From positions 1 to 33,349 of IMG/VR virus record IMGVR_UViG_3300023179_000314: 33,349 nt of DNA; one strand, 5' to 3'. The notes under the pieces are model-generated. The model saw only the letters and a list, made by a program, of their open reading frames with translations, had not been told where the DNA came from and made no database searches. This DNA comes from a virus. Positions 2 to 4,428 of this stretch are shown piece after piece; positions within the stretch are counted from its first letter, which is position 1, and the number at the start of each line of letters is the position of its first letter. The translations under genes and the position numbers were made by a program.

Positions 2-118
2 CGCGAGCGGGCCGAGCTGGAGGGCCGCATCGGCGGCTTGAAGAGCGCCATCGCCCACTACGCGGCGGCGATCAAGGTCTGGGCCCCCCGCCCCCTCCCC
101 TTCGAAAAGAGGGTTTGA
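2..118 (+). CDS. 3' end of an unidentified phage protein (partial)
   Basis: An open frame enters from the left edge and ends at TGA 116-118. Its 38 visible residues run from RERAELEGRIGG to FEKRV and are charged and helix-prone (an RERAELE stretch, then alanine-rich), ending in a proline-rich tail (APRPLPF). The other two plus-strand frames read as arginine/proline-rich shadow sequence. The function cannot be told from the remnant. The stop codon lies inside the TTGACA box of the promoter for the next gene, the same arrangement seen again at 775-780, which supports this reading frame as the real one. Confidence 0.6.
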   Translation, partial: RERAELEGRIGGLKSAIAHYAAAIKVWAPRPLPFEKRV

Positions 119-143
119 CAGGTCCCCCGGCCTGTCCCATATT
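115..143 (+). promoter_or_regulatory. Sigma70-like promoter P1
   Basis: A perfect -35 box TTGACA (115-120) is followed after exactly 17 bases by CATATT (138-143), a 4/6 match to TATAAT. The downstream leader contains AGGAGAT (157-163) and the ATG at 170. A second copy of this layout with the same 17-base spacing is at 775-803. The -35 box overlaps the stop codon of the upstream gene. Confidence 0.65.
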
Positions 144-150
144 TGGGACA
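133..150. promoter_or_regulatory. Operator-like inverted repeat over the -10 box of P1
   Basis: TGTCCCA (133-139), four bases, then TGGGACA (144-150) form a perfect 7-bp inverted repeat that covers the -10 hexamer at 138-143. A repressor bound there would block polymerase. In the second promoter copy the matching bases (794-810) keep only part of the symmetry. The natural candidate ligand is the HTH protein encoded at 1470-1700; this link is inference. Confidence 0.5.
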
Positions 151-169
151 TCGAATAGGAGATAGCATC

Positions 170-574: not shown

Positions 575-778
575 ATGGACATCTTTGAAATGGGCGAGGA
601 GATCGCCGCCCAACACCGGGCGCAGGCGGCGCGCGACGACGCCGACCCCGCGTATCAGGCGGCGCTGAAGGCCAAGCGGGAGCGCGAGGAAGCCGCCCGT
701 GGCCGCACGATTTTGACCGAGGAAGAGGCCGCCGCCGAATGGGCCGCCCTTGAGGAAGAGGACGAAAACGACGCTTGA
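575..778 (+). CDS. Small acidic helical protein, 67 aa
   Basis: Unknown function. The product is highly charged and almost certainly helical: long runs of A, E, K and R (for example LKAKREREEAARG) and an acidic tail (EEEDENDA). The only good Shine-Dalgarno (GGGAGACAGG, about 551-560) is correctly spaced for an ATG at 564 in another frame, which yields only a 31-codon, arginine-rich shadow. The 575 frame has the composition of a real protein, so it may be translated by reinitiation or coupling. Its TGA stop (776-778) lies within the -35 box of the next promoter. Confidence 0.65.
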   Translation: MDIFEMGEEIAAQHRAQAARDDADPAYQAALKAKREREEAARGRTILTEEEAAAEWAALEEEDENDA

Positions 779-803
779 CGGCGGCCCCCGAATGGCCCAT
801 ACT
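775..803 (+). promoter_or_regulatory. Sigma70-like promoter P2, near-copy of P1
   Basis: TTGACG (775-780), a 17-base spacer and CATACT (798-803) repeat the P1 layout base for base in spacing. The bases after the -10 box (AGGACATTGAATAGGAGATA) nearly equal those after P1, down to the ribosome binding site AGGAGAT (817-823) and the ATG at 831. The palindrome of P1 is degenerate here. It probably drives the operon 831-2574 that ends in mom. Confidence 0.62.
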
Positions 804-830
804 TAGGACATTGAATAGGAGATACATCAG

Positions 831-1951: not shown

Positions 1952-2026
1952 GCGGAGATAGCATAATGGTAATGCGCGCGCGGACCACCCGCGAGAAGAC
2001 GGTTCGATCCCGATCTCTCCGCTCCA
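1952..2026 (+). tRNA. tRNA-like sequence with encoded CCA, possibly degenerate
   Basis: The segment is exactly 75 bases, the length of a class I tRNA with CCA. The acceptor stem pairs perfectly (GCGGAGA 1952-1958 with TCTCCGC 2016-2022) and is followed by T and CCA (2024-2026). The D arm is GCAT/ATGC with loop AATGGTA. The T arm carries the consensus GGTTCGATCC (2001-2010). The anticodon arm is abnormal: the stem CGCG/CGCG is fine but the loop lacks U33, and depending on register the anticodon reads ACC or CCA. The outer T-stem pairs also mismatch. It may be a relic, or a functional tRNA-like element. It overlaps the mom start codons. Confidence 0.45.
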
Positions 2027-2574
2027 CCGATCTCTTTGTAGCGTCTTGCGAACTGGAAGACGTCAAGGCGTTCATCGAGGCCCGCCACTACTCTCACTCA
2101 GTCTTCGGCGTCACGGCGTCGCGGTGCTTCAGCGTCATGTATCAGGGTGAGTTGGCCGGGGGCGCTATCTTCGGTCTGCCTGCGGGCGTCGGCGTAGCCG
2201 CAAAATACGCCGACGGCGGGAACCTGCTGGAGTTGCGCCGCTTCGTGCTGCATGACAACGCGCCACGCAACAGCGAGAGCCGCGCACTTGGCGTCATGTT
2301 TCGCGCGCTGCGCCGTGAGGGATACACGCGGATTTTGAGCTACGCCGACCCGATGCACGGGCATTCAGGCGTCATCTACAAAGCCACTGGCTTCGAGTAT
2401 CGAGGACGTACGGCCGCCCGCAAACACATCATGTGGAAGAATAAAAAATACCCTGATCGTAACGTGCATCAGGTCAATTTCCCTTATCACCTCGAACTTC
2501 GCGCGGCGCTCGCGGCAGGCGAAGCCACACAGGTCCGCATCGAGCCAAAGCACATATACGTCAAGAAGCTGTAG
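1966..2574 (+). CDS. mom: Mom-family DNA adenine hypermodification protein
   Basis: This matches phage Mu Mom, a GNAT-fold enzyme that converts adenine in DNA to N6-(carbamoylmethyl)adenine and so shields phage DNA from restriction. Visible motifs, numbered from the 1966 ATG, are HYSH (41-44), GGAIFG (65-70), ELRR (89-92), SYADP (125-129), GHSGVIYKA (132-140) and TGFEY. The order and spacing are those of the family. The 202-residue length is close to Mu Mom. In-frame ATGs exist only at 1966 and 1972 (plus a longer start at 1927); 1966 has GGAGA 7 bases upstream, and its leader GGAGATAGCATAATGG nearly repeats that of the 170 gene. The first 20 or so residues are encoded by the tRNA-like sequence. 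The 3' end overlaps the convergent helicase gene by 14 bases. No Com-like activator gene is visible nearby. Confidence 0.85.
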   Translation: MVMRARTTREKTVRSRSLRSTDLFVASCELEDVKAFIEARHYSHSVFGVTASRCFSVMYQGELAGGAIFGLPAGVGVAAKYADGGNLLELRRFVLHDNAPRNSESRALGVMFRALRREGYTRILSYADPMHGHSGVIYKATGFEYRGRTAARKHIMWKNKKYPDRNVHQVNFPYHLELRAALAAGEATQVRIEPKHIYVKKL

Positions 2575-3886
2575 CGAACACCGCGTCCTGCACCTCGGCC
2601 TTGAACGTCAGGCGCGGGAAGACAGTCTCCTCCTCCACCGTGTCGACGGCGACGGTCGCGTAGCTGACCGTCTCCGGGGCCGTCTGGCCCTCGCGGGCCA
2701 GCCGCATGATCGTCTGGTCAAAATGGTCGAGCGACCACGGCAGCGAACACCAGCAGACCACATGCCCGCCGAATTGAAGATTAAGCCCGTGGCTGAATGC
2801 CGCCGGATGCGCGATCAGCACGCGCAGCCGCCTTGCGTTCCAATCCTCGACGGCCCCCGCCGCGACCTTGCGCGTCGTGCCGTTGCCCAGCACCGGCGCA
2901 TCGGGATAGCGCAGCCGCAGCTCGTCGAGCTGCTCGCGGTAGTCGTAGACCAGCAGGACGGGCGACGTCTGCACGTCCACGACATCGCAGATCGCGTTGA
3001 CGCGAAACATGTCGAGGCGCTTGCCCTCGCCCGTCTCGTCGTAGACGAAGCCGGCGCAGACCTGCCGCATCTTGTTGACAACTTGCGCGCGGCCGCCGGG
3101 CATCATCAGCTCGCCCTCGACATCGGCCACGCTCGCCTTGTCCAGCTCGCCGTAGATGCGCCGGATGCTGTCGGGCAGCGTCACCGGCACCTTGACGTGG
3201 CGCACGGGCGGCGGCGCCCAATTTTCCGGCGACAGGATGAACGTCATGTCGGCGATGGCGGCCAGCGACTTCTCCAGCGTCCCCTTGCGCGCCTTCCAGA
3301 CGTTCTCGCTCTGCTCCCGCATGTTGGCCGCGCGCCACTGGACCCAGTCGCGCCCGAGGCGGCGGCCCCTGTCGATGATGCGCGTCTGGGCGAACAAATC
3401 TTCCGGCCCGTTGGGAACCGGCGAGCCGGTCAACCCGATGCGCGTCTGCATGTGGTCGGTGTGTTTCAATACCGGCCGCCACTTCGCGCTCGTCGGCCCC
3501 TTGAATTTCGACAACTCGTCGACCACGAAGCAGTCGAACGCCTTGCTGTGCTTGGTCAGGAAATCGACAAGGTTCTCGTGATTGACGACGACGATATCAG
3601 CCCCCCTGACGGCCTCGTCGCGCTCCTTCGGCGTCCCGGTCGCGATGGCGATGCGAAGATGCTGCAAGTGATCCCACTTCGCGCCTTCCTGCTGCCACAC
3701 CAGTTCGGCAACACGCAGGGGAGCCGTCACCAGCACACGGCGTACCACGCCGTCGCGCAGCATCTCACTGAGTGCCGTCAACGTCACGACAGTTTTTCCG
3801 GCACCCGGACGAGCGAAAATCATGCACTCGTTGCGTTCGTAGATGTGTGTGATTGCCTGCTCTTGTACAGGCCGCAGATCAGGCAT
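2561..3886 (-). CDS. SNF2-type superfamily 2 DNA helicase
   Basis: A 441-residue phage helicase of the kind found beside VRR-NUC and DUF2800 genes. An N-terminal Q-motif-like LRPVQEQAI is followed by Walker A RPGAGKT (K31), motif Ia TAPLRVAE, motif II VVDELSKF (D123, E124), motif III LTGSPVPN and a C-terminal motif VI QTIMRLAREGQ. The protein is short for an SNF2 enzyme, with both RecA-like lobes but little else. The ATG at 3886 overlaps the upstream gene by 8 bases; an alternative TTG lies at 3898. It probably acts in phage replication or recombination by remodelling or unwinding DNA, in partnership with the VRR-NUC nuclease encoded two genes upstream. Confidence 0.9.
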   Translation of the reverse strand: MPDLRPVQEQAITHIYERNECMIFARPGAGKTVVTLTALSEMLRDGVVRRVLVTAPLRVAELVWQQEGAKWDHLQHLRIAIATGTPKERDEAVRGADIVVVNHENLVDFLTKHSKAFDCFVVDELSKFKGPTSAKWRPVLKHTDHMQTRIGLTGSPVPNGPEDLFAQTRIIDRGRRLGRDWVQWRAANMREQSENVWKARKGTLEKSLAAIADMTFILSPENWAPPPVRHVKVPVTLPDSIRRIYGELDKASVADVEGELMMPGGRAQVVNKMRQVCAGFVYDETGEGKRLDMFRVNAICDVVDVQTSPVLLVYDYREQLDELRLRYPDAPVLGNGTTRKVAAGAVEDWNARRLRVLIAHPAAFSHGLNLQFGGHVVCWCSLPWSLDHFDQTIMRLAREGQTAPETVSYATVAVDTVEEETVFPRLTFKAEVQDAVFATAS

Positions 3887-4121
3887 CACGGCTACCAAGG
3901 ATGCGCTCGACTTCAGCCTTTACGACTCGAAGCGCGGCATCAATATCAATTTCAGGATCGAACTTGGGGTCGTCGAGGGTGTCGCAAATCAAGCGCGCGG
4001 CGACGCCGATAAAACATTCGAGAGGCACACCGCCTTGCGCCGCGCACACGTTACTAAAAACGCGGTGCAGAAATTCAGTTTCGTTTTCGTAGAGGTCGAC
4101 AGGTCCACAGCGCAGAGTCAC
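3879..4121 (-). CDS. Hypothetical protein between VRR-NUC and helicase, 80 aa
   Basis: Not recognised. The chosen start is GTG at 4121, which forms a GTGA overlap with the stop of the VRR-NUC gene and has AGGA 7 bases upstream; a TTG at 4127 is possible but too close to that site. The protein is acidic, with a middle segment likely to be helical (FIGVAARLICDTL) and a second helix (AALRVVKAEVERIL). It has no catalytic motif or membrane segment. Because it is sandwiched and translationally coupled between a nuclease and a helicase, it may be an accessory factor of one of them. Confidence 0.7.
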   Translation of the reverse strand: MTLRCGPVDLYENETEFLHRVFSNVCAAQGGVPLECFIGVAARLICDTLDDPKFDPEIDIDAALRVVKAEVERILGSRDA

Positions 4122-4381: not shown

Positions 4382-4398
4382 TTCTTAAAATACCATGA

Positions 4399-4428
4399 TT
4401 GACATTTTCGCGCGACCGTCGGTAATGT
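4399..4428 (+). promoter_or_regulatory. Probable promoter of the replication operon
   Basis: TTGACA (4399-4404) is followed after 18 bases by TAATGT (4423-4428), a weak -10. It lies in the only gap between the divergent nuclease/helicase block and the plus-strand replication genes. A good ribosome binding site (CAGGAGACAG, about 4440-4449) precedes the ATG at 4452. The -35 match is perfect but the -10 is poor, so activity may depend on an activator. Confidence 0.45.

Follow-up and report, generated by a model that had tools for sequence, protein, structure and literature searches.

The mom gene in a viral DNA stretch of 33,349 nucleotides (IMG/VR record IMGVR_UViG_3300023179_000314; the whole stretch is called the window) raises the question of where Mom enzymes obtain the group that they add to DNA. 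The mark made by Mom of phage Mu is N6-carbamoylmethyl-adenine, the added group being C2H3NO. To our knowledge, no donor of this group has been established since the discovery of the mark in Mu. The features of the locus are collected in Table 1.

Table 1. Features of the window, in order of position
Feature	Position	Strand	Remarks
Promoter-like TTGACA-17-CATATT with leader, copy 1	115–166	+	promoter part 115–143
Promoter-like TTGACG-17-CATACT with leader, copy 2	775–824	+	promoter part 775–803
Exported-protein candidate, 82 aa	1697–1945	+	immediately precedes mom; inconstant, relocated in L002
tRNA-Gly-like gene	1952–2026	+	GCGGAGA-TA-GCAT-AATGGTA-ATGC-G-CGCGC-GGACCAC-CCGCG-AGAA-GACGG-TTCGATC-CCG(A)TC-TCTCCGC-T-CCA; 7-bp acceptor stem, discriminator T (2023), encoded CCA (2024–2026); ARAGORN, Rfam, R1
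Identical 80 nt	1952–2031	+	window = L002 = L003
Acceptor stem, 5′ strand, GCGGAGA	1952–1958	+	contains GGAG, plausible Shine-Dalgarno sequence of mom, paired in the folded tRNA
D arm, GCAT-AATGGTA-ATGC	1961–1975	+	contains the mom ATG (1966–1968)
mom	1966–2574	+	open reading frame, 202 aa; Mom-family GNAT-fold DNA modification enzyme; start codon inside the D loop of the tRNA-Gly-like gene
Anticodon arm, CGCGC-GGACCAC-CCGCG, or CGCGG-ACCAC-CCGCG with 5-nt loop	1977–1993	+	C35 and C36 retained, U33 absent
T arm, GACGG-TTCGATC-CCG(A)TC	1998–2015	+	single bulged A
Acceptor stem, 3′ strand, TCTCCGC, with U73 and CCA	2016–2026	+	
Ser105 codon	2278–2280	+	equivalent of Mu Mom Ser124; NSES motif at the place of the CoA P-loop

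Judged by its sequence and its modelled fold, the window gene is a genuine member of the Mom family, as a first-pass annotation had proposed from four motifs. All four are found in the product: HYSH (residues 41–44), ELRR (89–92), SYADP (125–129) and GHSGVIYKA (132–140). The PF25680 Mom profile matches residues 23–199 with 99.3 bits (cut-off 27.1), phrog_1384 (‘Mom-like DNA modification protein’) matches with an E value of 6.6e-42, and Mu Mom (8bv8) matches with E 2e-9 as a single sequence and 1.4e-25 by profile. The AF2 model has a pLDDT of 92.7, and its low-confidence part consists of residues 1–20, encoded by the tRNA described below (67–73, against >90). A Foldseek search with this model gives Mu Mom 8bv8 as the best fold match (E 4e-12). 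A VIA comparison of the model with 8bv8 gives Z 17.7 (r.m.s.d. 3.3 for 180 residues), and acetyltransferases, the next best, reach at most 15.3. The Foldseek comparison with Mu Mom had been suggested as a check, and 8bv8 is the closest fold. The Pfam, PHROG and Mu Mom sequence matches lie well beyond chance.

Serine 105 of window Mom aligns with S124 in the PRNSES motif of Mu Mom, the residue replaced in the 8bv8 entry, the title of which reads ‘inactive mutant S124A’. This serine is kept in 52 of 53 relatives, and H41, Y42, E89, R92, S125, D128, H133, Y138 and K195 are invariant among 53 sequences. The acyl-CoA P-loop motif [QR]xxGx[GA] is found in none of the 53 Mom sequences, its place being occupied by the essential serine. 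The lack of the motif does not prove a lack of CoA binding, as the fold is still that of a GNAT, like that of ordinary acetyltransferases. The anti-restriction function suggested at first pass is, by analogy with Mu, well supported as a predicted role.

Window Mom and Mu Mom have in common the family, the fold, the invariant residues including the NSES serine, and the role in DNA modification. The settings of the two genes differ. In Mu, mom goes with Com and a translation-inhibition stem and lacks a nearby tRNA; in the window, Com is absent and the start of mom is covered by a tRNA-Gly-like gene. As the first-pass annotation stated, no Mu-like genes are seen near the window gene, and a search for a Com-like CxxC...CxxC zinc-finger ORF close to it found none. 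The repeated promoter that was said to precede the operon is present in two copies (0.5 expected). A GGACAT.GAATAGGAGATA leader follows both of them, but neither stands directly before mom. PHROG matches in the window comprise a DNA polymerase, a primase/helicase, a tail fibre, a virion protein and an endolysin; no diagnostic podovirus gene is among them, the short-tailed phage of the first-pass annotation being a tentative description. No close DNA relatives of the window were found among deposited phages. At their 3′ ends, mom and a convergent helicase gene (2561–3898, minus strand) overlap by 14 nt (2561–2574).

The first reading of the locus overlooked the tRNA-like gene that contains the start of the mom ORF. 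ARAGORN predicts a tRNA at 1951–2022 and labels it Val(GAC), a label taken to be a misreading of the irregular anticodon loop. The Rfam tRNA model scores the element at 28.6 bits, 0.4 under its gathering score of 29, and the covariance model R1 (see below), which has the window among its 27 building sequences, scores it at 69.2 bits (E 1.8e-17). A leader before the gene at 170 (158–173, GGAGATAGCATCATGG) closely resembles the 5′ part of the element (1954–1969, GGAGATAGCATAATGG); one may be derived from the other, or both may be ribosome-binding sites.

Two related loci, L002 and L003, indicate which parts of this arrangement are constant. Codons 1–21 of mom are unchanged across the window, L002 and L003, and about half of the remaining codons vary (95 of 203 differ overall, codon 22 among them). 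The homology of L002 to the window begins approximately at the 5′ end of the tRNA, the DNA directly upstream being unrelated and the exported-protein gene lying elsewhere, and the gene for the 122-aa protein is absent from L003. The small neighbouring genes had been put forward as partners in the pathway, and their co-occurrence with mom as a check; these comparisons speak against such a partnership, as neither the 122-aa nor the exported-protein gene is constantly found with mom in L002 and L003. The constant companion of mom in the relatives of the window is the tRNA-Gly-like element.

The same association is observed well beyond these relatives. Searching 2.9 million viral contigs with the D-arm word ATAGCATAATGGTAATGC returned 54 stretches, nearly all of them tRNA genes and many tRNA-Gly. 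Mom is encoded on 11 of the 44 contigs that carry the word, and in all 11 the tRNA overlaps mom; most of these mom genes end ...KKQADIA*, their last codons forming the acceptor stem and D arm of the tRNA. Of the degenerate elements, the Rfam tRNA model detects only a part (in 3 loci of a set of 11). For the A3 clade, which is distinct from the Mom clade of the window, 80 mom loci were collected by similarity to three query proteins, which came from tRNA-bearing contigs, the loci themselves being chosen without regard to tRNAs. A tRNA-Gly-like element is present at the 3′ end of mom in all 79 loci examined (51 sense, 28 antisense), and the 50 distinct 3′ elements all overlap the mom ORF. When 27 diverse elements from the window, L004, L083 and others were aligned, 96.7% of cells were paired and 149 showed a double change, compared with 41 in shuffles; compensatory changes occurred in 15 of 21 pairs. 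The model R1, built from these finder-derived elements, gives 70 matches in 70 A3 loci, one apiece; every match adjoins mom, and the rest of the 490 kb yields none. Applied to 72 sources, mainly of the broader clade of the window, it places an element 5′ of mom in the window, L002, L003, L004/L099, L082 and L083, and before the second mom of L151. L083 and L151 each hold one divergent mom paralogue whose start codon lies within the D loop of its own 5′ element, and the main mom of L083 has another 5′ element. What these comparisons show is a cloverleaf, complete with encoded CCA, that is conserved and covaries across its mom-linked copies and that overlaps or closely adjoins mom in several lineages.

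Mapped on a Mom tree, the element must have changed in presence or side at least five times, which implies several gains or losses. No element is found near most A2-clade mom genes, nor near those of Mu, ICP1, Listeria A511 and others, so not every Mom depends on a tRNA of its own. Scans of genome contigs found no copies in bacteria; prophages lay outside the survey. Several loci contain more than one mom gene: two and three mom-like genes stand in a row at L083:4299–5546 and L151:628–2728, and two adjacent minus-strand mom genes with a tRNA-Gly alongside at L326:1114–2351. In many A3-clade phages (L158–L236) the mom frame spans the whole tRNA-like element, the tRNA also encoding the C-terminus of Mom.

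One explanation of the fold would be that it is a mere cis-regulator, masking the Shine-Dalgarno sequence and ATG of mom as the translation-inhibition stem of Mu does until Com binds, with another donor supplying the group. In the window, GGAG lies in the acceptor stem, six of whose seven predicted pairs have a probability of ~0.99, and the ATG lies in the D loop; a D-loop ATG is used in several separate 5′ fusions, and Mu mom is itself under the control of RNA structure and Com (PMC6483171). However, the elements of the A3, Arthrobacter, Microbacterium and Salinibacter phages lie 3′ of mom, often on the opposite strand, so that masking of the start is impossible in these phages, and a cis-regulator has no need to keep glycine identity bases or CCA. 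This explanation is regarded as unlikely. It is barely conceivable that the tRNA is an attachment-site remnant or a hot spot of recombination beside which mom landed: tRNA genes are common integration sites and mom modules are mobile between phages, as the unrelated DNA upstream of L002 illustrates, but compensatory changes extend over four helices, the window element is unchanged over three phages, and the 3′ elements occur in both orientations with overlap of the mom ORF in every distinct copy, none of which would be expected of a relic.

The bases that mark tRNA-Gly for its synthetase are well established. The mom-linked elements retain G1-C72, C2-G71, G3-C70, U73, C35 and C36, a tally for which some bases were partly selected, since the element finder demanded GCG, T73 and acceptor pairing. 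The set of U73, C35, C36 and the first three acceptor pairs is found in the window element and the aligned copies, the L151 copy deviating at pair 2-71. The anticodon loops are far less regular. A canonical loop is found in 4 of 59 distinct mom-linked copies as against 34 of 35 other phage tRNA-Gly, the two groups having been read with different programs, of which ARAGORN favours regular loops in the controls; non-mom tRNA-Gly aligned by R1 also have regular loops. Most mom-linked elements have loops of 5–8 nt with U33 absent or shifted. The window element likewise does not have the 7-nt loop with U33 of a decoding tRNA, its loop being either GGACCAC with G33 or one of 5 nt. The D-loop GG is missing in 14 of the 59, and 13 of these have a corresponding change in the T loop as well. 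Regular UCC/CCC anticodon loops occur in the L158-type and Appa elements, which could act in decoding. The single irregular control is the tRNA-Gly of L273 (loop CGTCCAG, 4387–4404), situated at the edge of a contig that shows no mom; a mom gene is predicted just beyond that edge.

Phages often carry tRNAs, and the element could be an ordinary tRNA-Gly that decodes glycine or, being nuclease-resistant, replaces tRNAs cut by host defence, its linkage to mom being incidental. The regular loops of the L158 and Appa copies would fit such a function. The remaining copies argue against it, as most loops are irregular and the elements with altered D and T loops are unfit for decoding. Moreover, glycine tRNAs alone adjoin mom: in 133 loci picked by tRNA words, the 18 tRNAs near mom comprise 16 Gly and two of the window element, against 42 Gly among 791 tRNAs away from mom, and the linkage in the A3 clade is without exception. 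An ordinary tRNA is thus very unlikely.

The overlap or adjacency of such tRNAs with mom relatives in several unrelated phages suggests that the donor used by Mom is probably glycine carried on tRNA. By formula and mass, the C2H3NO of the Mom mark is exactly one glycine residue. It is considered likely that Mom and a dedicated tRNA-Gly-like RNA constitute a two-part DNA-modification module with glycyl-tRNA as the donor. The host glycyl-tRNA synthetase would charge the element RNA, and Mom would take the glycyl group from this charged RNA, in place of acyl-CoA, and transfer it to N6 of DNA adenine. The first product would be N6-glycyl-adenine, which has the same formula as N6-carbamoylmethyl-adenine and could be converted into the known mark if the glycine amine attacked C6 in a Smiles-type rearrangement. 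The irregular anticodon loops would keep most element tRNAs off the ribosome. With the Shine-Dalgarno sequence of mom embedded in the acceptor stem and its ATG in the D loop, any one transcript would yield either tRNA or Mom, a choice that may also restrict expression. The modified phage DNA would resist host restriction, and mom genes without an element, that of Mu included, would draw on host glycyl-tRNA. It also appears reasonably probable that Mom enzymes are in general glycyl-tRNA-dependent DNA transferases, and that several lineages have independently fused mom to their own, mostly non-decoding tRNA-Gly, one transcript serving as message or cofactor carrier.

The use of aminoacyl-tRNA by GNAT-like folds is known from the Fem ligases, L/F-transferase and MprF. 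Like the proposed Mom, these use an acyltransferase fold to draw an amino acid from tRNA, but their targets are peptidoglycan, protein and lipid, and their genes are not known to overlap those of their tRNAs. No aminoacyl-tRNA-using GNAT-like enzyme is among the matches listed for the fold, which is not counted against the proposal. Staphylococcus has non-proteinogenic tRNA-Gly for cell-wall bridges, charged by GlyRS and shaped to evade the ribosome. The proposed element would share both properties; the Staphylococcus tRNAs differ in being used for peptidoglycan, in being chromosomal and in not lying with a DNA-modification gene. An acyl-CoA donor such as glycyl-CoA has been proposed for the Mom genes of jumbo phages, which share the Mom domain and a predicted N6-adenine acyl transfer with the window, and for which fusions to REase-fold domains are described, the passages on them naming no tRNA link (PMC7824862).

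A further possibility is that Mom acts on glycyl-tRNA itself, in the manner of GNAT toxins that acetylate aminoacyl-tRNA, with the linked tRNA as target, decoy or antidote. The fold is near that of acetyltransferases and GNAT toxins acting on Gly-tRNA exist, but Mu Mom modifies DNA, the essential serine and the other invariant residues are retained, and the acetyl-CoA P-loop motif is absent, which makes this most unlikely.

The protein itself is of a known kind; the fused tRNA is new, and tRNA-dependent DNA modification would be new chemistry. No link between Mom and glycyl-tRNA, or any tRNA, was found in the open-access literature; subscription papers and preprints lie outside it, and an earlier report is possible. 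Were the glycyl-tRNA mechanism correct, translation chemistry would be joined to DNA modification, the glycinamide nature of the mark would be explained, and a defined assay of Mom, glycyl-tRNA and DNA would be available. Gene finders overlook tRNAs that overlap coding sequence.

Cultured phages offer test systems. The deposited record of Salinibacter phage B2_17 contains a tRNA-Gly 33 nt 3′ of mom, and that of Microbacterium phage Appa a tRNA-Gly(ccc) at the same distance 3′ of mom on the opposite strand. In Arthrobacter phages BarretLemon and Wyborn, unannotated elements overlap the 3′ end of mom (R1 47.2 and 48.3 bits). A weaker element is present in Pseudanabaena phage Pan3 (R1 24.4 bits). 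R1 found no element by mom in Mu, ICP1, SP-031, PMBT8, Geobacillus PK3.6, DSL-LC03, API480, Totinger, Stickynote, Ef6.1, JeffCo, Lifes, Maureen, Riggi, Exiguobacterium, JD024, A511, AS-zj, Phynn, P2-71 or CRP-212. An R1 match in phiEf11 was rejected as a mom element, being an ordinary tRNA-Asn 1.2 kb before mom. Among Enterococcus, Arthrobacter and Microbacterium phages (L238, L239, L240, L369), mom is preceded immediately or almost immediately by a ParB-like nuclease/partition gene. The mom gene of Synechococcus phage DSL-LC03 (L242:1430–2600) overlaps a gene annotated as a type II restriction endonuclease.
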